DNA of 64,000 nt, from positions 10,274,288-10,338,287 of the forward strand of contig NC_092676.1 in NCBI RefSeq assembly GCF_964355755.1, in the 5' to 3' direction. Below, one piece after another: positions 5,147-62,347 of the stretch; position 1 is the stretch's first letter; every line of letters begins with the position of its first letter. The translations under genes and the position numbers were made by a program. The notes below the pieces were generated by a model that saw only the letters and a list, made by a program, of their open reading frames with translations, had not been told where the DNA came from and did not search any database. Source of the stretch: Antedon mediterranea (taxonomy: Eukaryota > Echinodermata > Crinoidea > Comatulida > Antedonidae).

Positions 5147-7607
5147 AAGAAAACATCTTAAGGAGCAAATTTGCAACATCTTTGTAATGCTCTGCACTTG
5201 CAAAGAAACAGGGGTATGCATTCTATTCTAAGCAAGAACTGTTTGGTCCAAAATTTAAAAAGACATCAGAAAAGCCAATGAAGTATTTTGACGGCGCCAA
5301 CATTACATTTTCTATGTATGTACTTTGGATTGGAAACTTACTGTGATCCAACTCCATATTTAGGATGGGGTCGAATTATTAAATCCCAGACTCATTACTT
5401 AATTAAGAATCCTATTTCTTTAAATATATATGAGATATATGAGATATATATGCAGTTATAAAAAGTTGCAGTTGCAGAAAATTAACTGGAATGTTCTATT
5501 GCATGTTGTGAAGGGTGGCCGAATAACTTCTGATACCCATGATCTTAACCTGGATGTGGTAAATGTTCTACTATTTTCATGAGATTAAAAACATTTTTTT
5601 CTTTCGGTTTCTATATTTTCCCCTTAGAATAATGCCAATTGAGCATTATTGTGACAAAATACATGACGTCATATGTCTTATGACATCATAGGTACGTTAT
5701 ATGGCAATTTAAATATGCTAATTATAAAGTTTAATATCACATTTATATCTACTCTCAATGCACTTAGGTGGTCTAAAACCAAGCGTTAAGGAGATATGGA
5801 GCTTCAAAATGGTATGATAAATAGCGGCCATTTTGAATGTATGCTAATTAACCCACTTCCTGACGTCCGATTTTGGTAAACTTTGGAAATAATGTTCATT
5901 TTAACAAGGAGAATGTCAAGAAACATGTTTTCTTGCAGTCCCTAAATTGTTTGAATAGTATAATGTCATTTAAACAGTTATAACATAATATATGACGTCA
6001 CAACTACCATATGACGTCATAAGTACGTCATATGGAAATTTAAATATGCTAATTAGAATGTTTAATATCACATTTATATCTACTCGTAATGCACTTAGGT
6101 GGTCTAAATCCAACCGTTAGAGAGATATGAGGCTTCAAAATAGCAAATGGCGGCCATTTTGAATTTATGCTAATTAACCCACTTCCCGATGTCCGATTTT
6201 GGTAAACTTTGGATATGATATTCATTTGAACCATATTTACCAGACAAAACAAAAAAAAATTCTGTTGCAATTTGTTCTAGGTTCACCCTATTTTTGACTT
6301 ATCTTTACTGGACTATACCTTATTAATTTTAATTTGTTAGACCCATTCCAATCAGCATATAAAGAGGGTCACTGTACTGAAACAGCTCTTCTTAGGATAC
6401 TAAATGACATAAAAGTTGCTATGGACAGTAAGCAAGCAGTTGCCCTTGTAATGCTTGACCTATCTGCTGCCTTCGATACAGTTGACCACCAAATACTTCT
6501 TGATCGTCTTCATTCTTATTTTGGCATTTCTGGCTTTGTTTTGAACTGATTTATTTCATATCTTCAAAACCGTACACAATTCATTGAAATAAATGGTGTT
6601 AGATCGTCGCCTAAATATATGGAATGCGGAGTCCCTCAAGGATCCATCCTTGGCCCGATTCTTTTCTCTTTATACTGTACATATCTCCTTTATCCCAAAT
6701 TATCAAACGTCACTACATCTCTTATCATTTCTACGCTGATGATATTCAGTTGTATATTCCTTTTGATCCCCATAATCTACTTATTGTTATTGAACGCCTT
6801 GAGAATTGCCTTAAAGACATCCATACCTGGCTTTCGACCAATCCCCTCAAATTAAATGATAATAAATCTGACTACATCATTTTCTGTACTAATCATATTC
6901 GTACCAAAATAGCACCCCATTTTAATTTATTACTATTGGCTCATCACTCATACATCCGTCTCAATTAGTTACTAATCTTGGTATAAAATTTGACGAATCT
7001 CTAAACATGGCAGCACACATCAGTTATATTACTAAATCAGTAAACTGTTATCTTCGCAATATTGCACACATTCGACATTTTGCTTTCGATACGCTCCACA
7101 TCCTCTATCATTCATGGTTTTATCTCCTCTCGTCTTGATTATTGCAATTCTCTGTTCTATGCCCTTCCGAATTTTCAAATTAATCGTCTTCAACGACTAC
7201 AGAACTCGGCTGCTCGTATCATTACGTTTACTAACCGTCGCTCTCACATTTCACCTGTTCTTCGAGAACTTCACTGGCTCCCCATTGACAATCGAATCAA
7301 ATTTAAAATCTTGCTCCTTACTTTTAAAGCACTTCTTTTCAACCAACCTGCTCACATCCGTCAATTTTATGTTCCTGGACGAACTCTTAGATCATCTGAT
7401 GATTTTTTACTCTCACGCATAGCCACTAAAACCTTTGGTCATAGATTGTTTTCTTTTGCAGCACCCACACTCTGGAATTCACTCCCCCCACAAATTAAAC
7501 ACTACTCTTCTGTTGCCTTGTTTAAAAAATTGCTCAAAACTCATTTTTTCGACCACTAACATGCCCAGCGCCTTTGATTTTGTACCTCGGTCTTTGAATT
7601 GACGCTT

Positions 7608-11830: not shown

Positions 11831-13778
11831 TATAGGGAGAAAAAGTGTAAGTGACGTTTCCTGGCTATACCGCCTTCTCTGAGTCAAACAAAGTTCAGTC
11901 AGCCATCTTTTCCTATTCTAACGCATTGATTTAACACTGTTTTTCGTACAGCAAACAATGGTCAATTTGGCTGCCAGCCAATGGGTTTTTGGTTGAATTT
12001 AAGCATTTATTTTGTCATTTATAAGTGAAAACATTATTTTATCTTTTTTTTTTCCTACGGAAGTGATTAACTTTATTAAAACTACAAAATAACATATTCA
12101 AAGTCTGATTTAATTAATCTTCATTTTTCATGTTTTTGGGGGACAAAACATCTTTTAAGTGGAGGTGTACTCAGTCAGGGCTTTTCCTCCGGTTATTTAC
12201 TTCAATATATTAATATTACTAGGTACAAACATAAAAAAATCATATCAAAATAAGCAGTTTCTGAGAAATCAGAAAAATAAAAAAATGTGCAAAAATATTG
12301 AAAAACCGCTGTATATTTTTTTTCAGCAGTTAGGTAATGACCTTAGTTGTGAAGGTCATGCACGTCTTCTCTTTCGTCGTCGGCGGATCGCTCGAGCTGA
12401 CAACAAGACGCGCTACTTACTACATGTACTACTACAAGTGTATCTCATCATCCACATCTGATCGAATGAAGACAACTTATTATTGTCTTGCCTTTTGTTA
12501 TTACTTTTTGCGTCTACTCTTAGCTTCAAAATGAAGTACTGTATGGTATAGTGCCATAACAAGCCACATGGAGATATCAATCAAGTGAGGTTAATCTCCA
12601 TTCGTCTCTCTGTTGCTGGGGCCTAGGCCTCACCAGGCCTAGGCTAGTCTGATTTACATCTTTGCCGTCAGCAGTTTGTGATGATTGTATGGGCCTAGGT
12701 TCTGTTTCAAACGCATAACCATGTCTTTCTGGTCTAGGCCTACGATTAAACATTGCAGTTTAATCCGTCTATCTTTTCAAGTAACCACTGCAAAACAATC
12801 TTAATCTTAGACTAATTTATTCGTATGTATTTTATATCCTAGTTCATAACATGATTCAGTTGAAAATTCATTGGTTGTTATTACATGATTTTGATAATAC
12901 GTCATGATGCATGTGGAATAAAAATAGTATTTGTGTTCATTTTTTAAATATTTAAACCACACAGTTGTTGGTTGCTACAATAAAGTAGTACTGTACTTAA
13001 ATGAGTTGCTGTATCATGATGATTCATCAACATCTATTTCAGAACTGTAAGGGACTGAATGCATTTTCTTGGCTAAGTCTTCATCTGCTGACCCATCTGG
13101 TTTGATTCAATTTCATCTGTTTCACTGTCATCATTAATATCTTCAAAAGGTTGTAGTCGGATTCTAGGCATACATAACATAATACATGTTGTGCATTATC
13201 TATCTTAGTTAAACAAATTGTGCATGGTAACCCCTTCTGGTGACTGCACTAATGAGCTTAATTTCTTGACAAGCCAAAAGTAGTTTAAAATGTTTTTCTG
13301 TAATAATACATTGTTACTTTGTTTTTGATCATCATTGGTCTGGCTACCAATGAATTGGAAGCACACAAGCCTCGCTACCACGTCAAGGTTGATGATCATA
13401 GCGAGGGTAGGTTGCACGTTTGTATGTGCCCCTTGACCAAAGAAACATATTATAGAAGACATTGGAAACATATTATGAAACTTAAAACAGATTAAATAAA
13501 TTGTAAAAGTTAATTAAAGTATGATAAAACATAAACATACTGATGTTGGCAAAGTTGTGATAATGCATTTTAGATTATAGAAGGAGGTGAAGATTTATCT
13601 CTGTTGGTGTATATTAAGTAGATAGTTGAATTTCTGATCACAAAACAATAAAAAATGTTTTATCTCTAAAATGTTCGTCAAACTGCTGTTCATCAGCACA
13701 ATGACCCTTTTTCCGCAGTGGACATATGACAACATCATCATTGGTAGTTTATCCCAATGATAAAGTCTACAGCTTCTT
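11831..13778. other. Intergenic stretch without a recognised gene
   Basis: AT-rich sequence with TAGGCCTAGG clusters near 12,620-12,740. The ORFs at 12,159-12,534 and 13,205-13,471 (88 aa, - strand) show no motif I recognise. The latter lies downstream of the PGBD-like gene and could belong to its 3' flank. Confidence 0.4.
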
Positions 13779-13784
13779 TTTATT
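13779..13784 (-). promoter_or_regulatory. Candidate poly(A) signal for the PGBD-like gene
   Basis: AATAAA on the - strand about 190 nt past the PGBD-like stop codon. It is the first exact copy I found downstream. Position is the only support. Confidence 0.35.
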
Positions 13785-13974
13785 GTGTTGTGATCAAATG
13801 TTCAACTATTTACATAATCCTAGTCTGAGGTGTATATAAACAATATATGTTTAATCTAAATCGCACTACATTCTAATTGTCCTTTTTGTTGCTAAATTGG
13901 TGCATAACTTGTGTTTAAAATATATTTATATAAATACAAAAACTAAAAATAATTTCACCTACTGTACTGTATCT

Positions 13975-16900
13975 TTAGCTGTGATATTCCTTTGTACAAT
14001 TGGTTTTGTAGTCAATGAGTGTGTGGTAGCGTTCAAAGCAGGGCACAGGACACATTGGTTTCTCACACTGCCCACATATAAATTTGGTTTGGTGTCGTTT
14101 GCTGCCAGCCCCTCTTTTTGAGCACACAATACAGTCGGGTTCGGATGTCCTACCTTTCGGTGTCCTTTGCTTATTTGCTGACACAAAGTGGCGTTCAGTA
14201 AGTCTCTGTGGTGGATCAGTTGGTCTTCTACCTGGTCTTGATGGCCGACGTTCGAAGTTTTTTAGCAGACCATCAATGAGTTCCAGTCGAAGTTTATCAG
14301 ACCTGACATGTTCATTTGGATGGACACTTCTGTATATTATCAAAGCATTGACGAAACTTACCTCCAAAAGGTAAACAAATACCTTCTTCCACCATTGAAG
14401 ACTTTTGTGGATGTTTAGATACGTCCATATAAGCCGGTCAGCACGATCTACTCCACCCATGTTCTGTGTGTAAAACTCGATGGCACATGGCTTCTGGATT
14501 TCACAATAGTTTGGTCCTCGCCGCTGTCTTATCTGCTTCTGAAATGTCATTGAGTTATGAATAGTTGAAATGAGACTTACCTTTCTCTTGTCCATCCAAC
14601 AAACAAAGAGTTGATTGCCATCTTGTTCGAATACAGAATCTCCAACAGCTGGATTGGCCAGCTTGATTCTGTCTGGAACTCCAGTCCTATTTGTCCTCAA
14701 TGTTCCACATGCACCTGTAGATTTGTTTGCAAGATCTGCAAAGAGAGCTGGGGAGGAAAAATAATTATCCATATATATATGGTGCTTCTTGCCTATGATA
14801 GGCTCGCACAGCTTCATAACAGTCCTCTGTGTAGCATCTGGAAGGCCGTCACTACCTGTAAATAAATCCTGATTATAGATGTAGCCAGTTTTGGAATCTG
14901 CTAATGTCCATACAGTCATACCCTGTTTGTGTGGTTTTTTAGGGTGGTAAGTTTTGAACCAGATCCTACCTAAAAAAGCAATAACGCTTTCATCCACAGA
15001 CATATTCCTAGATGGACTGAAAGCAGATTGAAAGTTAGCAATGAGATTTGACATGAAAAATCTGATTTTGAATCCTCGATCATAGCTAGGATCATCACGT
15101 GGTGGTGCAGCATCATTATCGGCAAGGTGGAGGCACCTGAGGATTAAAGTAAAACGATTTCTGGACATAAGTTTCCGGAGTCCAGGCTGTTCTAGAAACC
15201 AATGTGTAGACCAGTGATTTTCGTAGCTATTACGTCTATCAAAACCAAAGCCTAACATAATAGCGATAAATGCACGTACCTCATTGATGTCTGTATCTTT
15301 CCAGCCTTTCAAAGTTGAATTTTTTAACTTACCTGCATTCCGTTCAATGAATATGAGCTTATTCGCATACCTATTTGTCTCGGTAACTATGTGCTGAAGC
15401 ACTTTGTCATCTACAAAATGCAGAAATATATCCGTGATTGAAGAATCGACATCATGGATTGTTGGTCCTGCACGTTCAGTAAATTCTCCTAAAATACACA
15501 ATTTATATAAATCAAAACAAATCAACTCAATAGTTTGAAATGCAAAACATTTTGTAATCCTAAATATAATCAATAATATATTAAAATAACATAATAATTT
15601 ATTAGGTGATCATTTAGAATAAAATGATCACCTTATTGTAGGAAATCTTATTGGTTATCCTCAACGAAGTTACACAAAAATCATACAGAAAGAAAGAAGA
15701 TGAAAAAAAAGATGATGATGATGATTTCGTACAATCACAAGAGGTTATCCGCAACGAAGTTAGTTGCAGGATACCCAAATCGTTTTTTCCTACCTATTTC
15801 TATAATGTAGCAGGCCAAATAAGACGTTATTTTACAGGATAGAGGGCGGCAAACAATGTTTTTCTCGTATCAGAGCCGTTCATCGTTGTTACTGTAGGAG
15901 ATATGTGATTTCTATTACATTTTCTGGTTTGTTTGTCAGTTGCTTGTCCGGCCTGTAGGTCATAATGCCAACGTGAACACTTTCTTTTGGCCTCAACCTA
16001 TCCCCTTAATGTTAAAAGGTACGTCGTTAAACGTCCATGTTTCACCACTTGCGCGGCGGATAACCAAACTCGTCAAAGTGACGAGTTTCATGTCTAGTTT
16101 CGCTTTATTTCTTTCTGTACAGATTTTGTGTGTCAATTATCTCAAAAAGTAAAATGTCAATGATCACAAAAATTTCACAATATCTTTCAAATACTGTAAC
16201 TTGATCCTAATAAGCTTTTCAGCGTGATCACTCAACCGTGACGTCATTTATACGCCATTTTGTGAAATCACATTATCAATCATATCTCCATAATTCATTA
16301 TCACAAACTTCAGGTCAAGGGTAAAATATTAGCAAATAAAACTTGCGTAGATGTAGATCCAGCAATTGAGGTACACAACAGAGGAGGTTGCGTAGTTGAT
16401 ACGAGACGTAACAACTCGCGGAACAAATTAAAATGACTAATGTTTTGCCTTTTTTTAATAGTGTTTATCCTTAATAATAATAAACAGTATTTATATAGCG
16501 CCTAATGGATCACTGACCCCTCTAGGTGCTTTACATTAGACCTTAACTTTAAATGGTAATAAACTATCCCCTGCCGGACACCATTCCGGTATTTCTTAGT
16601 CGAGGTTTCGGGGATGGAGACAATCAATAATGTGAAAAAAAAATGTAACTAAGCTTAACTATGCTTAACTAAGGTAAAACTATCCCCCGCCGGACACCAT
16701 CCCGGTATTTCTTAAAAGGGTTCCTACTTCTAGTATTTTTATCAGTTAATCTACGGTATATTGTTTTGACAACACTTGTAACATGACAACACTTGTAACA
16801 TGACAACACTTGTAACATGACAACACTTGTAACATGACAACACTTGTAACATGACAACACTTGTAACATGACAACACTTGTAACATGACAACACTTGTAA

Positions 16901-19900
16901 CATGACAACACTTGTAACATGACAACACTTGTAACATGACAACACTTGAAACATGACAACACTTGAAACATGACAACACTTGAAACATGACAACACTTGA
17001 AACATGACAACACTTGAAACATGACAACACTTGAAACATGACAACACTTGAAACATGACAACACTTGAAACATGACAACACTTGAAACATGACAACACTT
17101 GAAACATGACAACACTTGAAACATGACAACACTTGTAACATGACAACACTTGAAGACAACACTTGTAACATGACAACACTTGTAACATGACAACACTTGT
17201 AACACACGACAACACTTGTAACACACGACCACACTTGTATTACACGACCACACTTGTATTACACGACCACACTTGTATTACACGACCACACTTGTATTAC
17301 ACGACAACACTTGTATTACACGACAACACTTGTATTACACGACAACACTTGTATTACACGACCACACTTGTATTACACGACCACACTTGTATTACACGAC
17401 CACACTTGTATTACACGACCACACTTGTATTACACGACCACACTTGTATTACACGACAACACTTGTATTACACGACAACACTTGTATTACACGACAACAC
17501 TTGTATTACACGACAACACTTGTATTACACGACAACACTTGTATTACACGACAACACTTGTATTACACGACAACACTTGTATTACACGACAACACTTGTA
17601 TTACACGACAACACTTGTATTACACGACAACACTTGTATTACACGACAACACTTGTATTACACGACAACACTTGTATTACACGACAACACTTGTATTACA
17701 CGACAACACTTGTATTACACGACAACACTTGTATTACACGACAACACTTGTATTACACGACAACACTTGTATTACACGACAACACTTGTATTACACGACA
17801 ACACTTGTATTACACGACAACACTTGTATTACACGACAACACTTGTATTAACACGACAACACTTGTATTAACACGACCACACTTGTATTAACACGACCAC
17901 ACTTGTATTAACACGACCACACTTGTATTAACACGACAACACTTGTATTAACACGAAAACACTTGTATTAACACGAAAACACTTGTATTAACACGACAAC
18001 ACTTGTATTAACACGACAACACTTGTAACATGACAACACTTGTAACATGACCACAGTGCTGATTTTGCCATTTTCCCCCTGACTGATGAATAAAATTCGG
18101 AAATATTTACACAGCCATTCACTTTGAAATATCTGTAAGCTAAAAACTGAAAGTAATACTGGATATGGGACTTTACGAAATTAAAAGAAAAAATTGTGCT
18201 GTGTGAATATTAATCTACAGTAGGATATGCATCAAAATGTGACATTGTGTCTGTTTCTGCTGGAAATAAAAATAATCGATTTTTTTCTAAGTACCACAAA
18301 CCACAGAAATAATCGCGTTGCAACTGAAAAAGTTCTCCGACGTTAATCGGTTATCTAGTAATCGCTTTTTAAAAATCACGTCATCCATACTGTACCTACA
18401 GCGCAGTTCAAGTTATGGAAGGCCGATGAGAGTTGGTTTGTTTACATCCTATCGCTGCCTAAAACTCTCACATGTAGGATTAAAAATTGAACTCCTAAAG
18501 CTATATTATTTGTAAAATAAATATCTAGACTAGACTAGGCCTAATACCGTACCACATACAACAGAATAATGATGTTAAAAGTTCGTTTTGTCGTTCGGCG
18601 TTGGTTTTACTCTAGGGCCTAGGTAGGCTATATATTTCTACCAAAACAACAGGCCTAAAAAAGGACATGCAAAACATCGTTTGCCTGGACTGGTGGGATG
18701 TAACGGTGTGCTTGTAAAGCAGAATCGTGGAGTCTCTCGGTATAATTCTCCCCCACAAAATAATAAAAATTCAAATGTTTATTAACATTTGATTGTTATT
18801 CGGTCCACATCGCTGATCGCAAATAAACACCATGCTTTGTGAATGAGGGTTGCCATACTTTAGAGGTCAAAGTGTGGTCAATAATCGCTATTTGTGTTAC
18901 AGCTCAAAACTGCTCCTCAATAATCGGTTCAAACAAAAACTAATCGATTAAAACATGCAATGGATTGAGTGTTTTTAATCGTTTATTTTTAATCGGTTAT
19001 TTTATTTTGCGCCGTTTCTGCTGCCCAAAAATAATCGATTAATAAAATAAACGGTTAATTCTCAGCAGAAACAGGCCCATTGTAAAATAACAATTGTTTT
19101 GAGAAAATGTTTAGTTTTAAAAAATTAGTTATTAATAAACAGGAAATTCAATAAACAGTGACTACCAGCACAAAAAAAATCAACAGGAAAACATTGACAG
19201 AATTGATTAAAATAATCTAGATTATGAAAAGAAACCAAATTACATACGATATCTAGTATAAAAAAATCAGTCAAAAAGACTTGATATTTTGTCTAAAGGC
19301 CCATGCTTTTCGCACCACGCCTCTAGGCACCTATTTTCCCAGAGGACATAATCCATAAGATCAACCTGAAAGCGATATACTGTATCTACGGCTGACAATT
19401 TTTAAATTTTGTAAACTCTTTATAGGTCCAGGCTGCTGGACCCAAAAAACGTCTGGAAAAAAAGTTTATTAGTGCTCACAGTTGAACAATTTTAGATTTT
19501 TGCCCTTTGATTGGTTGACGTGAATCAACCTGCTGCCGTGAAGTCATGTTGTCTCTGAGGACTGCATGTCCAACACACATCGGGGAAAAATAATGTATTG
19601 AAATTCTTTGAATGAGGTTAAATAAACATGTAATATTATAGTTTTACAAAATATATTACTAACAAAATTATTTACTTAGTTTGTGGCTAAAACGATTATT
19701 TTCGGCGATGTTTTGGACCGGCCTATATTTCGAAAACTATAAGTCAGATTTCCATAATTCTTTCTTTATTTTAATATTTATACAAAATATTAACAGGCAA
19801 TGTATGCTATTAACGTCTAATGTTGCATCTTAAATATCCCTGGGTTGGCATACAGAATAGTATGTGGGTCGGGTCATTAGGGAGTAATTAATGCTACTAC

Positions 19901-21666
19901 CCTGGAAACATACAGTATACTGTAGTTTAGTTTATGATTATATTTTTGTTCTGTACAGTAGGCCAGACTATATTTACATAAAATGTTTACTACTAATTGT
20001 TAACAAAAATATTCGATATTATAATAAACCATTATAACTGAAGAAAGAACAATGATTCATTGTTAGTTAAAAAGTTGAGCATGTTTTTTGCAAGAAATAT
20101 TTCTTGTTTATTAAGGTACGATTTACAGAATTTATAGAAATGATTATAGAATCGTCTTATTTTTGACATTTAAAAAAACATTTTTGTAGGCCCATAAATT
20201 ATTTATTTTTACATAAAAGGATTGTAGGGAAGGCCAAGTTGAACCGCCGACAAGTTGAGCAGCCGCCAGAAAATGTTATTTTCTATGGAACGCCAAATGC
20301 TAACTTTCGCCGGTGCTTGTTCTATTTATATTAGGGATAATGATGTACATTCAAAAGTTTATATATCATGGTTTTTAGTATATATATATTATTAAATATT
20401 ATAATTAAAGAAATAATTATGAAAATCTGGCTTGTAGATTCCAAAATATAAGGCCCAAAACATCACCGAAAGTGATCGTTTTTATCCAAAAATGACATAA
20501 ACATTTTGCCCCCTCAGTCGGCAGTTGTATGAACTAGGCCTACTCCATTTTTCGGTTAAATAATTACATAAAATCACGTTTTCTGGTAAAATATTTTGTG
20601 TATTAACATTGTAAAATTCAATAAAATATGATATTAAAAGATTAGTAAATAAAAAATAATATTTATTTAACCTCATTCGAAGAATGTTAATACTCTATTA
20701 ATTTGTCCTGAGAGACAACGTAACTTTACGTGGTAGGCCTACACGCGAGAAAAATTATGGAGTGCACTGAATTTTTCCCTCGAAAGATTAAAAACAATTA
20801 AATTATTAAATATTACTACTTTCCTTTGCTGTGTTTTTAATTGTAATATGTAACAATAAACCAAGACCATGAACTTATGTACTAGGACACCACCCTAAGC
20901 ACTACGCGAAATGTCGTAAAAGACGCACGCACTGTACGCTTCATAGAAATCACCGGCGGCTCAACTTGTCGGCGGCCCAACCAGTCATATCCCGATTGTA
21001 GCGTGTGCCTTCAATTAATTTTACTCATTTTGAAATTTTTAAATGCGCGTAATTGTTTGCGTAGCATGCTATTGGTAATCCATGCTATTTTATCATGTGA
21101 AAAATATGAAATACACCTTTGTAAAGTTTCATTAAAAAACAAATTTATGATCAGAATTTATGATCAACCATAACATTTTATAAAATCGCGCGTACTGTAA
21201 CTTACGCTGCGCGACTCTAACATCAAAGTTTCTTGCACACCTACAGTTTAAGGTCAATCTTCTGACAAAGTTAGACAATCTTATGTTGACAAGCATTAGA
21301 GATACACAGCAAACAAAATTCGTGGAAAGAAAGAAGAATAAGAAAAAAAAAGATCCTGACAAAAACAAGGGGTTGAATTTCAATAATATAAATTAAATAT
21401 TTACCTAACCAGGCATAATCATAGGCACGATCTTTCCAATCCAAATTATCGACACCCCTTCTATGTCTATGCCTTGCTGATGCATTGTTGTCTTCAGATC
21501 CTTCGTCATCTTCAGATCCTTCGTCGTCTTTTAATTCTTCGTCGTCTTCAGATTCAGGCTCAAAATCTTGTTCTAAAATATCACAATTAAAAGATTCCTC
21601 GTCGCTGTCGCTATCATCGATAAAAGACAAGTCAGCCACCTCTTTAGATTTATTATAGCTGGCCAT
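13975..21666 (-). CDS. piggyBac-derived transposase (PGBD-like), two exons, 591 aa, apparently intact
   Basis: Exon 1 is 21,666-21,405 and exon 2 is 15,488-13,975. Donor TTAG|GTAAAT and acceptor TTTTAG|GAGAAT join phase-1 ends in frame, giving 591 codons with no internal stop. Residues 1-87 are an acidic leader (DDSDSDEES, SEDDEELKDDEGSEDDE), then WKDRAYDYAWL. The junction yields GEFTERAGPTIHD, and the DDE_Tnp_1_7 domain follows. The piggyBac catalytic Asp residues are present at about 253 (MSVDES), 328 (YMDNYFSS) and 435/438 (GGVDRADR), spaced 75 and 107 as in active piggyBac proteins. A C-terminal cysteine-rich domain (CIVC, CGQCEKPMC, PC, about 540-577) would bind zinc and, by family, DNA ends. 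The 532-aa ORF reading into the intron upstream (Met at 15,573) is an artefact. I found no convincing TTAA-flanked ends, so it may be an old copy, a domesticated gene or an element with unrecognised ends. Family role: TTAA-specific cut-and-paste, nuclear. Confidence 0.88.
15604..16200 (+). repeat. Hairpin-bearing repeat, copy 1
   Basis: Starts with the perfect 30-bp palindrome AGGTGATCATTT/AGAATA/AAATGATCACCT (15,604-15,633) and has a second hairpin with AACTCGTCA arms (16,066-16,088) followed by TTCATGTCTAGTT. Both hairpins and the tail (CAATTATCTCAAAAAGT) recur in inverted orientation at 39,540-40,600. It lies at the 3' end of the PGBD-like intron. No coding; the class is unknown. Confidence 0.65.
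16475..16720 (+). repeat. Dispersed repeat with TTTATATAGCGCC and an internal duplication
   Basis: (AAT)n-like lead, ATTTATATAGCGCC, then two direct copies about 116 bp apart of ACTATCCCC(T/C)GCCGGACACC plus TCCGGTATTTCTTA. Probably a retroposon 3' tail. Confidence 0.5.
16768..18054. repeat. 1.29-kb minisatellite with 17-, 19- and 20-bp unit variants
   Basis: Tandem units in blocks: 17-bp GACAACACTTGTAACAT, then its GAAACAT variant, then the 17-bp form again, then a long run of 19-bp ACGACAACACTTGTATTAC (with ACGACCAC sub-blocks), then 20-bp units with TATTAAC, then 17-bp units again. The ACAACACTTGTA core is constant. The long ORFs on both strands are repeat translations. The array lies in the PGBD-like intron. 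Confidence 0.97.
18247..19078. mobile_element. Harbinger-like miniature element, TSD ATT
   Basis: Ends GTGTCTGTTTCTGCTG and (inverted) GGGCCTGTTTCTGCTG, with ATT on both sides (18,244-18,246; 19,079-19,081). TAATCGATTA and CGGTTA motifs recur inside both arms. The same termini bound the element at 33,848-35,456. It is non-coding and lies in the PGBD-like intron. Confidence 0.75.
19490..19810 (+). repeat. Diverged relative of the 28-808 repeat family
   Basis: TTTGATTGGTTGACGTGAATC, GTCATGTTGTCTCTGAGGAC and GGCTAAAACGATTATTTTCGG..AAGTCAGATTTCCATAATT match the interior of copy A and the relic at 63,340-63,800. Confidence 0.5.
20231..20993. repeat. Miniature inverted-repeat element, copy B (inverted to copy A)
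   Basis: Near full-length inverted copy of 28-808: starts GGCCAAGTTGAACCGCCGAC and ends GGCGGCCCAACC. Inner words such as CATTTTGCCCCCTCAGTCGG and AACTTTCGCCGGTGC match. It lies within the PGBD-like intron, close to exon 1. Confidence 0.75.
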
Positions 21667-24600
21667 TACACAGAAGTTTTAACCAAAATTTAAAAAAAAA
21701 TTTAATAAAAATATTCAAATGTAACCAAAATTGTTTGACTTGGATTTTCAAACAAATTGTAATACTCTTTATAAAAAAAACTATCAAATTCTCAGAAAAT
21801 CCGAAGAAGTCAATGGAAATTTTTTATGAAACACTTCAAGGTACTGTATGCTTGGCAGAAAAAATCGCCCAAGGCTTTTGAATATAAAATCAGTTTTGCA
21901 AGAATTGAGATGTGTTTCTTCAGTGATAGATCATTGAAGAATGCTGAATTGTTCAGTGATTTCAATTACCCGCCCATTGTGGGCTGTACCATTGCTAAAG
22001 TGTGGGGCAATGTTAGGTGTTGGCTTGTCTTTTAATCAATATTTACAATAGAATGACTATACATTTGTTACTTCCTATTTAAATATGCCTTTGAATTCTT
22101 TGGAATTTTAATTCAGTAGGGTGTTGCAGTAGAGTTAACATCTTTCTTATTTTTGATCAAATTAAACAATAGTACAGATTTACAAAAATTAAATTTCCAA
22201 TACTCTTTGCATTTATATAATTTTAAATTCAAATGATTAATCAAATTAAAATTTACTGCAAACACCCTACTGAATTAAATTCAGGTATATGTTAGGAATT
22301 AGTAATTTAGTAATGTTATTGTATGTACAGAGATTGATTAAAAAAACACCCCCAACTATTACAATGGTACAATCCATAATGGGTGGGTAATTGTCCTGGT
22401 GGTTAGTGTCTGGGTGATTATTGTCCTACATTCTTCTATTATAGCATGTTTACTAGGGTGCAAGGTTCAAGAATATTTGAGATAAGATCATTAATCAATA
22501 GTAACAGTTGTTAGTACAAGTTTCTTTAGGTTCAAGGTAATGGAAATAACAGTTTGTGCTGGCTGTATTCCCTACCTCCTTTCTCATATATAGCATGTGT
22601 GATCCTACTGTAGCAGCAAATATATTATTCTTCTTCTAATGTTACCAATTCATCATCTTTCAGAAACCACTATACTGTTAATGTATTGAACAATTCCTAA
22701 CTGAGCAACCATTGATGACCATCAATACAATAATAATAGTTACAACGGGACACAGTTAATAGGTGTTTTGCATTGAATTTTGTATATGTAAATTGTAATG
22801 AATGTACAGAAATACTAATGTTTTTCCAAGTATGCAAACTGTAAATGAGTTAGAAAGGGAATGAAAAATAATATATCTCTAATTTTTATATGATGTAGAG
22901 TAGGGGATAAATTTCACAAAATTCATATCAGGTGTACCACAAAGTCAATCCAAGGTCAAAGTGAATTGAATAGCTTACACATGTGATATTTATATCACTT
23001 GAAACCCTCTTAGTACTGAATTCCCAATAGGGAGGCCATTTCTTTACAGAACAGCATTTTGTATTACCCCAGGGAGTTGAAATTGTTCCAAGTAATTTTA
23101 TCATAAAGGTATAAAAATATGTTTCTAAACACAAATATTCCTTATTAAATTTCCTGCAAGATGTATAATTTATATTTTTATGATTTATTTTTATTTATGA
23201 AATCTGTAAATAAAAAAATTCAAATTTCCAAATAAAATTTTGTCAATTCAGTATTTGTGAAAATCTAAATTTTGAAAATTCCATCTTAAGGTATGTCTGA
23301 TTTCCCTTGTGTGATAACAACTCATACTATAGAAGTTATTATCCAGTAACCTTTAGTTATAGTCCTTACAGGTTACACATGGTACCATGTGGCCTAGAAA
23401 AAAAGCCACAGACAAATTGTTAACAGTAATTTTGTCTAAATTTTTGAAAAAGGCTAACTTATCAAACTACTTGGAATATTGTTGGCCAATCAGGAGTCAG
23501 GGTAGGTTAGTTAAGATAATGTTTTATTTTTTAAGGATAGTTTTAGTTGGAAGGAAGGTGAACAGACACAGGTCAGCAAGAGGGCCTGTTCATTAACAGT
23601 GGGACAGCCAGTCGACAAATCGTGTCAAATTTCGACTCGGAGAGGGCGCCCTACTTTTCTAATTTAGTTCAAAATTGCTAAATTTTAGGGTGTTGGAAAA
23701 ACACAATATTTGTAAATTTAGCTGATTATCGGAAAAATATTGTTAGTGAAATAAATTCATAAATGGTTTTAATATATTGTCATGTAAAATTAAATGTATT
23801 TGAACAAAACGATAATCTGTAATTTAACGGCAAAATCAACCAATGTCTTTTTTCCGAAATTGTACCCTAGAAAATCATTAAAATAAAATATTTAGAAAAA
23901 TTGAACAGTCCTGAATTTAAAATCCCTGTTAGAAAAATTAATAATCTACAGAATACGATATTAAGATACAAAATTCGGTGGTTGGGATGCAGCTCCGACT
24001 ATTCAAACTAAAGGTACCACTATTTGCTCCATCGAAAACTAGCGAAACCGCCATTTTGTAAACACATCGTCATCGTGTTTATGAATTTATTTATAGCGAA
24101 CGATATACGCGATGTTTATAATTGTCCGCGTATAAGAATTCATATAAATAATACATTCCAATACAACGTATATTATTACTTGTTTATTTATCACAGTATA
24201 CATTTTAGTTGAGGAATATTTATCATAACTATTATAATAGCTTTTATACGAGTCCGAGGCCTAGCCCTATTAGCGAGTGATTGTTCCAGGGGCGGAAAGT
24301 CACTTAGTGACGTTGTGATCGGGCGCGTCGGGCCTAGCTAATATTAATAATATGACCTGAAATAAGCGGCTAACAAGAACTGTTATATACTTGCTTACAA
24401 TTTTTTTGTTATTGATGAACAAACAAGCAATTAGATTGAATAACAAATTATTTATTCATTTTTTTTGGGTAAAAACATGTACAAACTAGTAGTACTGTAT
24501 AATCATGGAGTATAATATAAATTAATAGTAATATTAAACTAATACAGTATTAATAAAATATAAAATAGGCTATACAATAAATATTCAATTTTTAAGGTCT

Positions 24601-36984: not shown

Positions 36985-38325
36985 CTATAACAAGAGAGGA
37001 GTAGGCTTGCATATATCAAGAGAGGAGTACACTTGTGTATATCAAGAGAGGAGTACACTTGCATATATCCAGAGAGGAGTACACTTGCATATATCCAGAG
37101 AGGAGTACGCTTGCATATATCAAGAGAGGAGTACGCTTGCATATATCAAGAGAGGAGTACACTTGTATATATCAAGAGAGGAGTACACTTGTATATATCA
37201 AGAGAGGAGTACGCTTGCATACCGTATATTTCGGTGTATAAGTCGCACCTGTGTATAAGACGCACCCCCAACTGAGAGTAAAATATCGGTATTTTTTATA
37301 TCGTCGATGTATAAGACGCACCTTATATTTCATCAAAACAATGTTTTTTTAAATTGTAATCAATATTATTGTGATAATATATTTTGTTATATCTACAACG
37401 GCGTCCTTTATTTAGGTTTTTTCTTACCTAGGCTCGGCCGCGCCCAGCCTCAACAAGTTCTTTCTAACTTGTTATTCATGAGTTTCGCCGCAACATCGAG
37501 TGCATGACCGTGTGTGTAACACGCACGTGTGTGGGCTAGCCTCGCTCGATCATTTCGAGAGGGCGCATGTTTTCACGGACAATCGTATTCGATTAGTATC
37601 TATGTATCCGAGAAGTGTGTACGCTAGGTCCATGCTATAATCACCTGGAGAATATACTAGTCGAATACCGTACACTATGTGGCCACCAAAAGAAGGGCTT
37701 GCGCTTGGGGGGTACGGCGATCGTGCGTATAACTACTGTATAAATAAATACTATTCCAATCGTACGACGTAAACGTTTACAAATGAAATTTTATCGGAGC
37801 GCCATAATGAACAAATCTTTTCATCATATTTAGTATAACATCATGCTAAAATGACTTGAAAACTAGGCCTAGGCTAGGCAGAAGCAGGTTGCCGTTACGT
37901 TAGTTAGTTACTGTAGCTAGGCCTAGCCTACTCAGGCCTAGCAAACGAGGTGACGATAGCCTAGGCCTAGGCCTATGTACAATCTGTGTGGTGAGGCATT
38001 TATGTTCGGTGTATAAGACGCACCCTTAATTTGGAGGTCAAATTTGCGTGTCAAAAGTGCGACTTATACACCGAAATATACGGTATATCAAGAGAGGAGT
38101 ACGCTTGCATATCATATATCAAGAGAGGAGTACACTTGCATATATCAAGAGAGGAGTACACTTGTATATATCAAGAGAGGAGTACACTTGCATATATCAA
38201 GAGAGGAGTACACTTGTATATATCAAGAGAGGAGTACACTTGCATATATCAAGAGAGGAGTACACTTGTATATATCAAGAGAGGAGTACACTTGCATATA
38301 TCAAGAGAGGAGTACACTTGTATAT
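36985..38325. repeat. 26-bp minisatellite in two blocks
   Basis: Unit: TATATCAAGAGAGGAGTACACTTGCA with C/T and G/A variants. About nine units at 36,985-37,221 and nine at 38,084-38,325, the same phase on both sides of the 37,222-38,083 insertion. The 68-112 aa ORFs on it (repeating YISREEY and similar) are repeat translations. Confidence 0.95.
37222..38083. mobile_element. TA-flanked element inserted in the minisatellite
   Basis: Ends CCGTATATTTCGGTGTATAA and TTATACACCGAAATATACGG, TA outside each (37,220-37,221; 38,084-38,085). Removing it and one TA restores a perfect 26-bp unit. The interior has GTATAAGACGCACC repeats near both ends and no transposase. Confidence 0.88.
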
Positions 38326-38616
38326 AACATATTTAGTCTTTTCTTCTAATATAAAGATTATCAAATTCAGTTTAATAGTGATTTGACTGATAGTAAGTAG
38401 AACTTTTATTTACTATTTTATTTTATTAGGGTTGATTTACCGATTTAGGAATGGCTTGAAAATGATATTTAGTTTTCAAATTTGTTGTACCTGTAATTTA
38501 AATCAAGAAAGGTAATCAAGTAAAGATCCAGTCCCACTGTCATTTCTTTTCTTCAATTTTTCAAAGGGACTTGTATTGATTGATAATATAACAGAAGAGG
38601 GTTTACAGATCTCTGG

Positions 38617-44751: not shown

Positions 44752-46215
44752 TTACCTATTAAACTTATCACTTTTGTGAAGGTTTGTTACATAGATGTCA
44801 TCATGTATTTCTAATGCTACAAATTTGTATGATTTGTTGACTTTATTCTCTTTTAAGTATTCTACGAGAACAAAGTGTCCACATTGGGTAGGACGCTGAT
44901 CATCAATTAATACAGCAGCAGATGCAATGATTTCAGATGGTGTATCATTTGCATGTATGTCAGTGTTTGCATCATTTGTAAATGCAAACTGTTGGTAACT
45001 GTTGGATGTTGCATATTGTACAATATGTTTTCTTGCAGTTTTAACTGAATGAGTAATTTGAATATTGGCAACGACTTCACATCTGCCCACCTTTCATCAA
45101 GAATTTGCTTATTACTGTATCACCAACTTCACTAGCAGGTATAAATATAACCTTTATAGCAGTTGCTCGTTTGGATGCTTTTTGCAGCAAAGGACAGTTC
45201 ATCCTTGATGTAAGATCCGGTCTTGGTTGCTGAAAAGACCATACTGTACATTTAACTTGTCCACCAATGTCATCAAATGTGCCTTTGCCATGACTTGTCG
45301 CAAAGTAGTTCCATGTTGCTGCGATGTCATAATCTCCTTTGAAGTAGGTTAGATTTTCAAAGAGGAATCGTTTCTTTAATTGACTGGCTGCACCATTCGA
45401 AAAGAAGGACAGATTTCTTTCACGTCTTTGATACAGAAATGTCGCCACAGCATATTTTCCATGAACCAAATCATCGCTGACTATCGCATATGATTTAACA
45501 TCTTTGTAGCCAATATATACACACCCAGTGAATTTTGTTACCTGTTCATGATTCCAATGTCCACTTTGAATCTCATTTTGTTGAATGATTGCATAATTTT
45601 CTGCAAAATCCAATTGCACAACAACCTGCTGACCATGAGCTTTCTCTTTCTCGGTTTCAAAATGAAAACTTTGCTTTCTCTTGATATATGTGTGAACGAG
45701 GAATACTGGAAGTTATTTCTTTATAATGCTAATACATTTTTGTAGAGTATTATGTTTTACTATCTTAGTTATCCATTGAATCCATTCTACTTCAAGATCA
45801 GCTTTTCTGGAAACGTCTCATCAAACTTTAAACTTCAATTTTCCAAACATGCATCCTTCATTTTCTTGATCGCATACTACAGTGTCAATAAAGTCATGAA
45901 AGTGTGTTGATATGTTGTCTGACACATTCTTTTTAATGCATTCGAGAAGAAGCCCAATGTTTTCATGATATTTCCAGATACAAACATTATGTGGAAAATC
46001 CTGTGCAAGACTTATTACATGTGCTGGTCTGAGAGAACAAAATGCTGATAACCCAACTGGATGGTTAGGATTATCTTGACAATATAAAGCATGACATTCC
46101 TTCAATGTCATAACGTTGCAGGAATCGCTTCTGCATGTATTCTTTAGTACCATTGCTCCAAAGTATGGCTACATCTTTACGGTAGGGCTTTGCCATGAAA
46201 TGTCATTGTGGGAGT
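44752..46215 (-). pseudogene. Transposon-type protein with DFAENY, SDGAASQ and HGKG motifs
   Basis: Segments from upstream to downstream: about 46,215-45,821 (DVAILWSNGTKEYMQKRF, VGLSAFCSLRPAHV, WKYHENIGLL), then 45,740-45,077 (YIKRKQSF, VVVQLDFAENYAII, SGHWNHEQVTKFT, YAIVSDDLVHGKYAV, FFSNGAASQLKKRFLF, YFATSHGKGTFDDIGGQVK, IFIPASEV), then 45,090-44,752. The series LDFAENY..WNHEQVT..SDDL..F(S)xGAASQ..HGKG recurs in an uncharacterised, repeat-like protein family of many invertebrates. The acidic positions look like an RNase-H-like nuclease core, but that is inference. Here the SDGAASQ Asp is Asn. There is a stop near 45,720 and a frameshift near 45,080. Confidence 0.7.
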
Positions 46216-52821: not shown

Positions 52822-54700
52822 TTATTGGATGACCAGGTAACCTTGGGTAAAATCAATGGTTAAAGAGTACATTGAAATATTCCAGCTTTCGGCATCCTCA
52901 TCGTATATTTCGTCTGGACCCCAATATTGAATACGATATTTTGATTTTCCTCTCAAAAACTTCTTGACTCTCCCAGAATAGATAGTAATATCTTTTGTGC
53001 TTTCTTCATACCATGCATGCTGTAGAAAGCCTTTGAGTTCACCAGCTAGGATGGCCTCCATCCCACTTTGAAAAATCATCCACTCTGCATTTTCATTAAT
53101 CATTTCCGTTAGACCCTTTGATTTTAGCTCTTTCTCCAGTTTTCTTCTTTCTGCAATTCTTTTGTTTATTTCTTCCTCCACTTCTCTTGTGGTTTTCTTC
53201 CTTTCTTCTCTCCGATTCCTTCCTTTGACAGTCAATTTTAGAAGATTGATTTTGAATGGAAGATTAAGGTTCGCCAGAAATTCTGTTGTCTTATTTTTTC
53301 TAGCCTTGATGCCACATGCAAGAAAATCTAATGTCGCGTTTGGTTTCATGGTCTGTCTTGCGGAAAACATACCCATCATCTGCTCAGCTTCGATGTTGTG
53401 AAGCCGAGCAGATGATGTTTTTCCCCTTAGCTCATCCGAAATGTCCATCTTAGCGTAATTAGCATACTGTCGTACTAAAACCATCTTTGTTTTTGTACTA
53501 CAACTTCGCATCATCGTTGGAAACAAATCAACGTTGGTTGGTGGTGCCTGTAGTTGCTTGATTTCCACTTGTACAGATTTTATAATATCGTACTCATTAA
53601 AGTGGCTCAGCTTTGTTCCTTTCTCTACATAGAATCTGCTCATCCACAGAGAAGTAATCAGTTTCCCTATCAAAGCAAAAACATGCAGTTCACATTGAGA
53701 AAAGTCAGTGGAATATGACCGCTTCATAGCCCTGCATAATGTGGCACAACTCAAATTTGATGAATCAAAAAGATTTGTAAAAAATTTTTGCTCTGTGAAA
53801 CACGATATGCAGCCGGTTACCACAGAATCTTGGCAGGAAACCTTTTTGATAACCTCTCTCTTTCAACTCATTCTTGAAACCTCTTGGGTCGCCTTTCCCA
53901 TCTGCATACTGCATTTTACTAATGTTGTACACGATACGCTGAGTAATGCATCAATTGCTAAACAAGTCTTTTTGTTGATTGCCAGTTTCCTTTTCCATGT
54001 TTACAAGGACTGTTCCACAGTCTTTCGCTATTGATTCTAGTGGGTGGAGGTGACAGTTTAATTCAGTCAAGCTAACATCCCATTTCTTTTCGAGAAGTGT
54101 TATAGTAGAATGATTAACAATGACTCGGTCACTCATTGTTAAAGTGATTTTACCTATCAGCTGTTGTCGAATATCAGTAAATATGGTTTCTTTATAGACA
54201 GTTGTGTAGATGGATGCCATGCTATTGATACACTCGTCAATCTGCTCTAGGTAATCCAAGTGAGTTGCCAGTTCATCAAATGCGATGACCTTACAATCAT
54301 TCTCACTACTCACATAAACTCCATTGACATGAGTTCCTTTTTGGGTTATGGCATCAACCCCTATAGATAATTGATCTGCTTCCAACATAAACTTTGCCGC
54401 CTAGTACCCAGAAACAGCACCCAGCTCTCTGGCCATATTTTCCACTTAGCTACGTTTCGGAGCATTATGTTAGTCACCATTTGCCCAAATGTACATTTGG
54501 ATGTTACAATAAGATGCTCTATATGTTTTGTTGGAACACCCAAGTTCAACATGTAGAAAATCAACTCCCTGGTTACGTAACTGAATGTGTTGCCTAGCTT
54601 GCAATTCCACACACTGATGTTTTCTTTCAAGGCTTCAATTAACTTTTCTTTATAACTGAAGACTACATTTTGTATCCGTTTATCTACATAACCTGTTTGA
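52822..54700 (-). pseudogene. RNase-H-like transposase core and C-terminal region of an OTU-linked gene
   Basis: From upstream: 54,630-54,400 (ELIFYMLNLGVPTKHIEHL), 54,388-53,951 (LSIGVDAITQKGTHVNGVYV, then TMSDRVIVNHS and LTELNCHLHPLESIA), a stretch at 53,930-53,790 in another frame (YADGKGDPRGF, FLPRFCGNRLHIVFH), and 53,780-52,822 (FALIGKLITSLWMSRFYV, EAEQMMGMFSARQ, KARKNKT, a charged coiled coil, IYSGRVKKFL and YRIQYWGPDE). The Asp in GVDAITQKG and that in MSDR, with HLHPL, look like acidic residues of an RNase-H-like core. The arrangement recurs in uncharacterised repeat-borne proteins of many invertebrates, but I cannot name the superfamily. Frameshifts near 54,390 and 53,790 break it. 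Confidence 0.6.
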
Positions 54701-54833
54701 TATTAAACTAAAACTCTAAAATCACAAATTGAGAACACGTCAATGCATGCAAAATAACAACTATTTAAAACTGCAATATACTACACTACAAAAATACATA
54801 CCATGCTTTTAAATCACTTCTAATGCGGTTAAC

Positions 54834-60413: not shown

Positions 60414-62347
60414 CTAGAAGAAATGTGTTAATATAAAATATTTTTCAGATGCTGTATTCATTGGAAATCGAGGGTACCTTATTATAGCATTGTCAGTCAG
60501 TGGTTTTTTTTTAATGAATCCTAATTGTTTTTTTCTTTGCACGTTTCCTTTCATTTCTGATGTACTTAACATTCTATAATTAGAACAAAATGTTGCAAGA
60601 CACATTGTGTTAAATTAAAAACTGTCTGATCGAGCTTTATATTTGTCGAGCTTATTTGGCAACCATGCACTTTTATGATCATCCAATTTGTTTTTAATTA
60701 CACTTAGTGGTAAACTCATTCTAACAGGATTAGGTCCTACTGGGATAAATTCAACTTTCCTTGAACATTGTTTCAATTTCAAGCCACAAACATGATAAAC
60801 ACTTTCTTGCGCAGATACTTCTCGATTGTTCATACACACATGACCAAGTTTTGACATATATCCTATAACATACGTAACACATGCATACACTGGTAATATA
60901 CTGAATATCCATATTAGCATTCCATGCTCTCAATAAAGAAGGATTGTATTGATTTACTCTTTAGAACAATCTTTTCTTCAGTAGTTATACAATTATTTGC
61001 TTCCTCATATGCACTCTGGATAATATTTAAACTTTTAAAAAGTTCTTTTGCACTCTCAAACATTCCTTCATTAGTTAAAGAATCTTTTACTGAGGATAAT
61101 ACGTGTTGCGCTTGTTTTTTTGCATAACCATCATCATTATCATCATTGTTTTTATCCACAATTGTAGGTCTCATAACAAATGTTTTTTCAGAAGGCTGTC
61201 TAGGGAAGTTGAATCTGCAATTCGTTCCCTTCTTTTTACACGATTTTGAATGTCTTTTACTATGAATCTGCACACTGGTGACAATTTCATTCATTTCACG
61301 ATCTACAATTTGACTTGGCACAGAACAAGAAATATATTTATCAATAAATTCAATCACTTTTTTATCTTCATCTTCATTAAAAACAGCATTTTCGACCCAT
61401 ACCAACATATGAACATGTGGACTTCCTCTCATTTGAAATTCAATTCTGTAAAAATAATCTGTAAATTTACCAATGGGTTTTGCTTCCGACAAAATAACAT
61501 TTTTTTAAAAGTATGAAAACGGTTGTCGAACATTCTGGCAACAGTCACTGGATTTGATTTCAGTAAATTACATTTGTCTGCCCATTCTAAATCATCAATA
61601 TTTCTATTATCTTTCTGTTTGACTTAACAATGTCGTCATTATTTTGTTCCAGCGAAAATCAGCACTTGAGAATGAAAGAAAAAATGTTGGCTTTCCAATC
61701 TGTCTTACCATTGCTAATACATCTTTTTGTGTTGCTTGCCAATAAGGTGGAGTTCCACGTATTTGTTTTAGAAATTTATAACCTTTATCAGATTTTAATA
61801 TCTCCTAAATTTTGTTTATATTTTTAAAATCAGATACAGTTACTTTACTAAATCAATCTTTTTACTTGACCCTTTTCGCAACGCTATGGAAATACTCGAT
61901 AAAATTTGTTAAAGTTCATATATAGATTGAGCATAAAATATGAATTCTGTATTTTTTGCAAACCTGTTATCTACAGTACATGCATTAATCTATTGTGTAA
62001 ATATCGTCCAAGTGTTATTTTAACAACTCTTGTATCATGGAATGTTGGTTGCCCTGTTGGAAATAGCACTGGAAATGATTTTGCTTCGTTGTTTTCATTA
62101 CATAATAATGCAATAGGGCTATTATTTTCACATGCACAACAAATAATATCACGAAAATATTCATCAACCAAATTTTGTCGCCTGTCAGCAGGTTGTAAAC
62201 TTGTGTCAAACGCAATGCTACACAATCGATATGCCGCTTCTTCTTCTCTTGTTTATTATTTTTTATACATGTTTGTTGATCATCTTCATTAGCTTTTGCA
62301 ATTTGAATGTTTTCTTTAGATACATAATTGTGCCACTTTTTGATCAA
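60414..62347 (-). pseudogene. Helitron Rep/Helitron-like N-terminal protein, frameshifted
   Basis: Ordered segments: about 62,270-61,971 (FPVLFPTGQPTF, KITLGRYLHNRL), 61,960-61,500 ([50 protein letters not shown]), 61,492-60,914 (PIGKFTDYFYRIEFQMRG then SPHVHMLVW), 60,920-60,615 ([42 protein letters not shown]) and 60,605-60,414 (MCLATFCSNYRML, IIRYPRFP). The PHVH site is the HUH metal-binding motif of the rolling-circle nuclease. Later Rep Tyr residues were not confirmed. The frame changes at least four times. The Pif1-like helicase that should follow is missing. Confidence 0.92.

Follow-up and report, generated by a model that had tools for sequence, protein, structure and literature searches.

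The transposases of the piggyBac superfamily, as represented by piggyBac of T. ni (PDB 6x67) and piggyBat of Myotis (9c0f), carry a DDE_Tnp_1_7 domain with aligned catalytic Asp residues, a Cys-rich end domain, and an acidic N-terminal region. The same set is present in the predicted product of a two-exon gene of the crinoid Antedon mediterranea, the subject of this report. The gene lies on the minus strand at positions 13975–21666 of a 64,000-nucleotide stretch of contig NC_092676.1 (positions 10,274,288 to 10,338,287; assembly GCF_964355755.1), and this whole stretch is hereafter referred to as the window. The gene differs from the two transposases above in that it has no recognised TTAA-bounded ends and contains one long intron. 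One intron is also found in the transposase gene of Pokey of Daphnia, and further likenesses are the insertion into TTAA and the presence of miniature inverted-repeat transposable elements (MITEs) in the same genome, which in Pokey are deletion derivatives (PMC3849761). However, the Pokey intron is 68–84 bp long and the elements have ends and many copies, whereas the window gene has a 5.9-kb intron and is single-copy. Pokey is a precedent for piggyBac transposase genes with a short intron. The domesticated PGBD genes, PGBD5 among them, are also alike, being single, intron-containing, piggyBac-derived, and apparently not mobile. Documented orthology and synteny link PGBD5 genes from lancelet to human, and the gene is reported to be absent from echinoderms, hemichordates, and urochordates (PMC3902484). 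The window gene is different in that its intron is ancestral to the transposon lineage. In sea urchins, piggyBac copies are reported, with no mention of introns in the available part of the source (PMC10813416). Among the papers that our literature searches listed, none was seen to describe such a gene, which does not prove that none exists. The window gene may be an immobilised, selectively kept, and possibly domesticated single-copy piggyBac transposase gene, and we put the chances of this at about even.

The gene consists of the following parts.

21405–21666, minus strand: exon 1 (262 nt), encoding the acidic N-terminal region (87 codons and 1 nt); a homologous exon 1 is present in the C6 paralogue described below.
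15489–21404, minus strand: intron (5,916 bp), phase 1, after codon 87, GT..AG; 309 bp long at the same site in the C6 paralogue.
13975–15488, minus strand: exon 2 (1,514 nt including the stop codon), encoding the piggyBac DDE domain and the Cys-rich end domain.

When the exons are joined at the donor TTAG/GTAAATAT and the acceptor TTTTAG/GAGAATT, a frame of 591 amino acids without a stop or a frameshift results. In Pfam, the protein matched DDE_Tnp_1_7 at residues 107–469 (E = 5.5e-86), the catalytic domain of the piggyBac superfamily, and the piggyBac-type zinc finger zf-Tnp_2 at residues 536–576 (E = 2.7e-6), with the Cys and His residues at 540–576. The closest solved structures were piggyBat 9c0f (E = 1.4e-58) and 6x67 (E = 2.1e-30). 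In the alignment with 6x67, D253, D328, D435, and D438 correspond to Asp 268, 346, 447, and 450, which we take to be the catalytic set of T. ni piggyBac. With the DDE_Tnp_1_7 domain, the catalytic Asp residues, and the Cys-rich end domain, the protein has the features that define a transposase of this superfamily. For piggyBac, a disordered N-terminal region is described that is dominantly acidic and spans about 100 amino acids (PMC9499001). A structure model of the exon-2 protein, built from a three-row alignment, had a mean predicted local distance difference test score (pLDDT) of 52.7 and was not used.

The splice model is independently supported by a paralogue, referred to as C6 (C6: 18767355–18769402), which matches residues 4–90 and then 86–590 of the window protein as two exons. 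The splice sites of the window gene have counterparts there in the donor GCCTGGTTAG/GTAAATAT and the acceptor TTTTTTAG/GAGAATTTACTGAAC, and the 309-bp intron of C6 lies at the same codon and in the same phase. The donor CCTGGTTAG/GTAAATAT is also kept in both C9 copies, which align with most of the C6 intron; the alignment ends ahead of the acceptor, and the exact acceptor motif was not found there. Because the coding sequences of C6 and the window gene are separated by 0.9 synonymous changes per site, the shared intron is old and belongs to the transposon lineage. The two-exon piggyBac structure is thus confirmed, and its intron was inherited from this piggyBac lineage rather than gained by a host gene; we infer that the gene is transcribed and spliced. 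The original prediction, made from the letters of the window, thus held for the joining of two open reading frames in phase through GT..AG sites into 591 amino acids, and equally for the catalytic Asp residues and the Cys-rich end domain.

A protein search of the same genome gave 46 matches (74 of 77 candidates scored), among which only the gene itself exceeded 73% identity. Within the reach of this search, the window gene is single-copy; the several near-identical copies that mark a mobile piggyBac element, and that were proposed earlier as a sign of an active one, were not found. The nearest relatives (62–73% identical) are broken or fragmentary: the one at C3:13450541 (62%) carries seven stops in the matched stretch, and that at C4:14242485 is badly broken. 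Several relatives at 54–68% identity are fragments, some of them without a stop. Among the matches of more than 45% identity, the window gene alone spans the protein without a lesion. For C6, the protein search counts one TAG and one TGA across its two overlapping matches; in the local alignment, the frame changes once and the aligned pieces contain no stop. L007 and L008 are young copies of a separate, distantly related piggyBac family (about 30% identity) and are 99.5% alike over 2,661 bp. L007 holds an open frame of 636 amino acids, and this distant family was apparently active recently.

The intron of the window gene is filled with repeats, which are listed below with their divergence from the consensus of their copies and with the substitutions private to the intron copy.

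16768–18044, no strand assigned: 19-bp minisatellite, 69.7 copies.
20231–20993, no strand assigned: repeat A, MITE-like with many copies, 3.9% from consensus, 14/762 private substitutions (1.84%) against 20 other copies.
19307–20112, no strand assigned: repeat F, the most diverged, 11.1% from consensus, 40/782 private (5.1%) against 10 copies.
18235–19085, no strand assigned: repeat E, 7.4% from consensus, 19/814 private (2.3%) against 16 copies.
16472–16712, no strand assigned: repeat C, young, 1/228 private against 8 copies.
15774–16341, no strand assigned: repeat D, 6/558 private (1.1%) against 4 copies, 6.1% from their consensus, a value raised by flanking bases in the alignment.

The minisatellite and the five dispersed repeats occupy 4,506 of the 5,916 bp (76%), in line with the minisatellite and several miniature elements described earlier. 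When only 4 copies are compared, repeat F is 13.2% from consensus with 9.6% private. A direct 8-mer, GATTGTAG, was read by eye on both sides of repeat A, so that repeat A must have inserted in place. Outside the repeats, the intron matched only itself, except for 94 bp (about 21281–21374) at 89% on C2 and short edges; the genome searches with the intron sequence scored the best 40 candidates. The FastTree branches of repeats A and D were inflated by 20-bp flanks, and the private substitutions were used in their place.

These repeats allow the survival of the reading frame to be compared with the age of the insertions. We calculated the chance that no disabling change would have occurred if the gene had been neutral since the insertions, given that 4.0% of random substitutions in its coding sequence create a stop. 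From the private changes, P was 0.027 for repeat A, 2.8e-4 for repeat E, and 0.015 for A, C, D, and E pooled. The pooled value counts only the four frameshifting indels of repeats A and E, and it is conservative because repeat D has further private indels. From the divergence to the consensus, P was 5e-8 for repeat A and 8e-6 for repeat E; for repeat F, stops alone gave about 0.03 (private changes) and 1.9e-4 (tree branch). The private counts are lowered by the choice of the best-matching copies and raised by changes that preceded the insertion. Since the gene was noticed because it is intact, these P values are suggestive only. Given the apparent ages of the repeats, chance survival of the frame seems unlikely. 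This comparison, the only evidence specific to the locus, makes a moderate case that the frame was kept by selection, and the intactness claimed earlier in spite of the intron insertions was confirmed.

The codons provide another measure of selection. By the Nei–Gojobori method (NG86), the pairwise dN/dS between the window gene and C6 was 0.24 (dN 0.217, dS 0.906), and it was 0.30 against C9, 0.24 against C4, and 0.10 against C3, where dS is near saturation. Between broken copies, the ratios were 0.84 (C3–C4), 1.05 (C3–C3b), and 1.005 (C4–C3b), and the C6–C9 pair gave 0.66. A branch model of dN/dS (omega), written for this analysis and applied to 587 codons of six sequences, gave 0.165 for the window gene (twice the log-likelihood difference, 2dlnL, 10.3 against omega = 1) and 0.32 for C6 (2dlnL 5.0). 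The pooled tips of the broken relatives C9, C3, C3b, and C4 gave 0.986 (2dlnL 0.01 against 1), so that this internal control behaves well; the internal branches of the tree gave 0.08–0.25. Purifying selection along the lineage of the window gene is supported by these values. The branch includes the life of the gene as a transposon, and with internal branches at 0.08–0.25, a value of 0.165 is what any live lineage of the family would show. In a two-phase codon model (constrained, then neutral), neutral tails of zero (2dlnL 2.3) and 0.2 per codon (1.0) were not rejected for the window gene, while 0.3 was (5.7). The same model gives C6 a neutral tail of 0.2 despite its single change of frame, and it probably overstates such tails. 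From these fits, the codons cannot separate selection at a host locus from selection during transposon life.

The ends of the relatives were used as a guide in the search for the gene's own ends. They read TTAA-[A/G]CCTCTTAGTRCC, both being present in a C9 derivative and the 3′ one in C6; no recognisable 5′ end was found in the 2.3 kb examined of the C6 copy. With at most one mismatch, the pattern CCTCTTAGTACYGAAT occurs at 24 sites in the genome, as compared with 2 for the reversed control. Nine of the 24 are exact, including the C6 end, the C9 end, and position 23006 of the window. Thirteen of the 24 were fetched; when these were scanned again with a slightly altered pattern, 12 were recovered, of which 4 have an inverted partner within 1.5 kb. 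Position 23006 falls in the following feature.

23003–23240, plus strand: truncated piggyBac-type end, 78% identical to the 3′-type end of the MITE family described below, pointing away from the gene.

The terminal-inverted-repeat-like site at 23005 was accordingly rejected as the gene's own end, as it points away from the gene and is part of this truncated MITE-like end. No own end was recognised at 9–32 kb of the window: in the right place and orientation, the best candidates had 8/21 (3′, left of the gene) and 11/25 (5′, right) mismatches, and in any place and orientation, the site at 23005 apart, 7/21 and 10/25, in a scan that had no shuffled null and that would miss ends unlike those of the relatives. 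A 16-base version gave weak sites at 9439 (+), 9645 (−), and 46608 (−), each with 4/16 mismatches. Among the TTAA sites within 3 kb of the gene (39 and 35 on the two sides), the best pair with inverted ends scored 10/14, equal to the median of 200 shuffles, and over 4-kb flanks the best pair was AT-rich at 12/16, with no null computed. As controls, L008 gave its expected ends (12/14), L007 a 12/14 pair at the wrong place, and L006 nothing clear (9/14); C9, for which a narrow range was given, gave 11/13. By comparison with the relatives, the window gene is thus likely to be without ends of its own, and neither a TTAA target duplication nor terminal inverted repeats were found within the limits of these scans. 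A single copy without ends, as is characteristic of a domesticated transposase gene, was what the searches returned. The TTAA and end search proposed earlier as a check therefore speaks against an active element, with the reservation that its controls were mixed.

These results may be explained by the following course of events. A copy of an intron-bearing piggyBac element would have settled at the window locus, would have lost or never kept usable terminal repeats, and would have remained as a single-copy two-exon gene, with an open reading frame that persisted as repeats entered the intron. Because the protein retains the acidic N-terminal region, the DDE core, and the Cys-rich domain, it would be expected to bind DNA specifically at TTAA and perhaps to cleave it, and the transposase may now serve the host or act in trans instead of moving itself. 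Of the two possibilities raised by the original prediction, purifying selection (domestication) or a fairly recent element, the former gains from the selection seen along the lineage, and the plain form of the latter is disfavoured by the lack of near-identical copies, the lack of recognised ends, and the old repeats in the intron. Domestication of the gene is plausible, and selection at its present locus and any host role are what we infer from the sequence.

Several points weigh against selective retention. The low omega includes the time as an active transposon, and the best neutral tail in the two-phase model was 0.124 per codon (about 4% per site). If indels are ignored and repeat A is taken at its lower 95% bound, the frame-survival P is 0.47, and with several related loci and a gene picked as intact, the P values need a correction of perhaps tenfold or more. 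C6 is nearly intact as well, with one change of frame and an omega of 0.32. Weak end-like sites exist far off at 9439 and 46608, and the missing ends carry less weight than they seem to, since the TTAA scan recovered the element's ends at a single one of the three control loci. Alternatively, the gene could be a dying transposon copy, inserted, deprived of its ends, and left intact by luck over a short neutral drift. The codon data allow it a neutral tail of several percent, the cautious count for repeat A leaves it ample room, and C6 is an existing copy with a single change of frame. However, with insertions as diverged as E and F, several stops and frameshifts would be expected, and none was seen. 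We regard this explanation as unlikely, though with a substantial minority chance.

A young MITE family is relevant to what the transposase might act on. This TTAA-flanked, piggyBac-type family of about 885 bp has CCCTCTTAGTRCC ends (L089, L091, L093, and L098); L089 and L093 are 99.3% alike, and L091 is 97.3–97.6% identical to both. With L093 as the query, 53 rows were obtained (40 of 42 candidates scored), many of them partial, and eight near-full-length copies were 93–100% identical to the query, the query included. Over 146 bp, the 5′-type end shares 87% identity with the corresponding end of the C9 copy, and the 3′-type end is about 75% like that of the C6 relative over some 75 bp. No intact transposase of the family's closest branch (C6/C9) was present among the protein-search matches. 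The window gene could be supposed to be an orphan transposase that acts in trans on these young MITEs with CCCTCTTAG ends and is intact incidentally or through recent activity. The eight similar copies, the resemblance to the C9 and C6 ends, and the absence of any other lesion-free full-span gene among the matches above 45% identity would fit this. However, the MITE ends derive from the C6/C9 branch and need not be those of the window gene, and the recent mobilisation could have been due to the C6 copy, whose frame changes once; we consider this supposition improbable. It is very improbable that the gene belongs to an autonomous element of about 9 kb that can still move and whose ends went unrecognised because those of its subfamily had diverged. 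In favour of this, TTAA sites abound on either side, there is no second copy by which ends could be defined, and the scan recovered the expected ends in L008 alone among its three controls; against it, the gene is a single copy with old repeats inside and its best TTAA pair is no better than the shuffle median.

If the gene is host-kept, it would be a further independent piggyBac domestication in which the catalytic residues are retained, and the path from element to gene would be traceable, as the genome retains the ancestral intron, broken relatives, deletion derivatives, and MITEs. That such a host-kept transposase may still cut or move the young TTAA MITEs with its close relatives' ends is a tentative extension, and on balance we doubt it. 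If the gene is not host-kept, it would simply be the last copy to have stayed intact in a fading family.

A conserved non-coding segment is found 3′ of the gene.

13293–13457, minus strand: 3′ non-coding segment, 86% identical to a segment 3′ of the C6 paralogue; no match in Rfam.

The segment appears structured (fold z −3.25, hairpin CCTCGCTA..TAGCGAGG), and its sites include L012:4654–4818, L015:933–1080, L025, and L026. A genome search with it gave 36 matches, namely itself, 22 at 96% with the same extents, one each at 94, 88, and 86%, and ten in which only the core recurs, at 83–89% over 74–117 bp. Of these loci, 12 were fetched, including eight of the 22 at 96%. These eight represent one young repeat, seven matching L015 over about 1.9–2.0 kb at 98.3–99.5%. 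In the two partial loci that were fetched, no piggyBac match was better than E = 0.4. In L027, the upstream frame contains an OTU domain above the Pfam cut-off and an integrase core below it (E = 3.3e-6). The family of L027:3502–7451 and the 22 loci is 99.4% identical between two copies over 3.95 kb, appears to carry a captured, decayed piggyBac C-terminus together with the 3′ segment, and has two 246-bp repeats that look tRNA-like by eye. The young repeat is probably a retroelement that picked up the decayed C-terminus with the segment. The segment was accordingly rejected as a mark of a piggyBac MITE burst, as its 96% copies lie in this probable retroelement. The idea that its opposite strand encodes a small secreted protein was also dropped, as several distant copies keep the DNA and carry stops. 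For a palindrome at 13600–13840, no other copy was found, so that it could not be dated.

Finally, we examined other frames of the window. Eleven open frames were submitted to Pfam in sets of 5 and 6. Mobile-element families were matched by two of them: a Helitron_like_N fragment in a frame of 192 amino acids (60914–61492) and a reverse-transcriptase fragment in one of 117 amino acids (6615–6965). No whole transposase was found in the 11 frames, which agrees with the earlier statement that every other transposase in the window is broken, for the part of the frames that was covered. Runs of adjacent minus-strand frames at 52822–54702 and 44755–46168 are possibly decayed mobile genes, and five frames from them had no Pfam match. 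A 26-bp minisatellite unit occurs in two arrays, at 36986–37221 and 38084–38326, which are about 0.9 kb apart.

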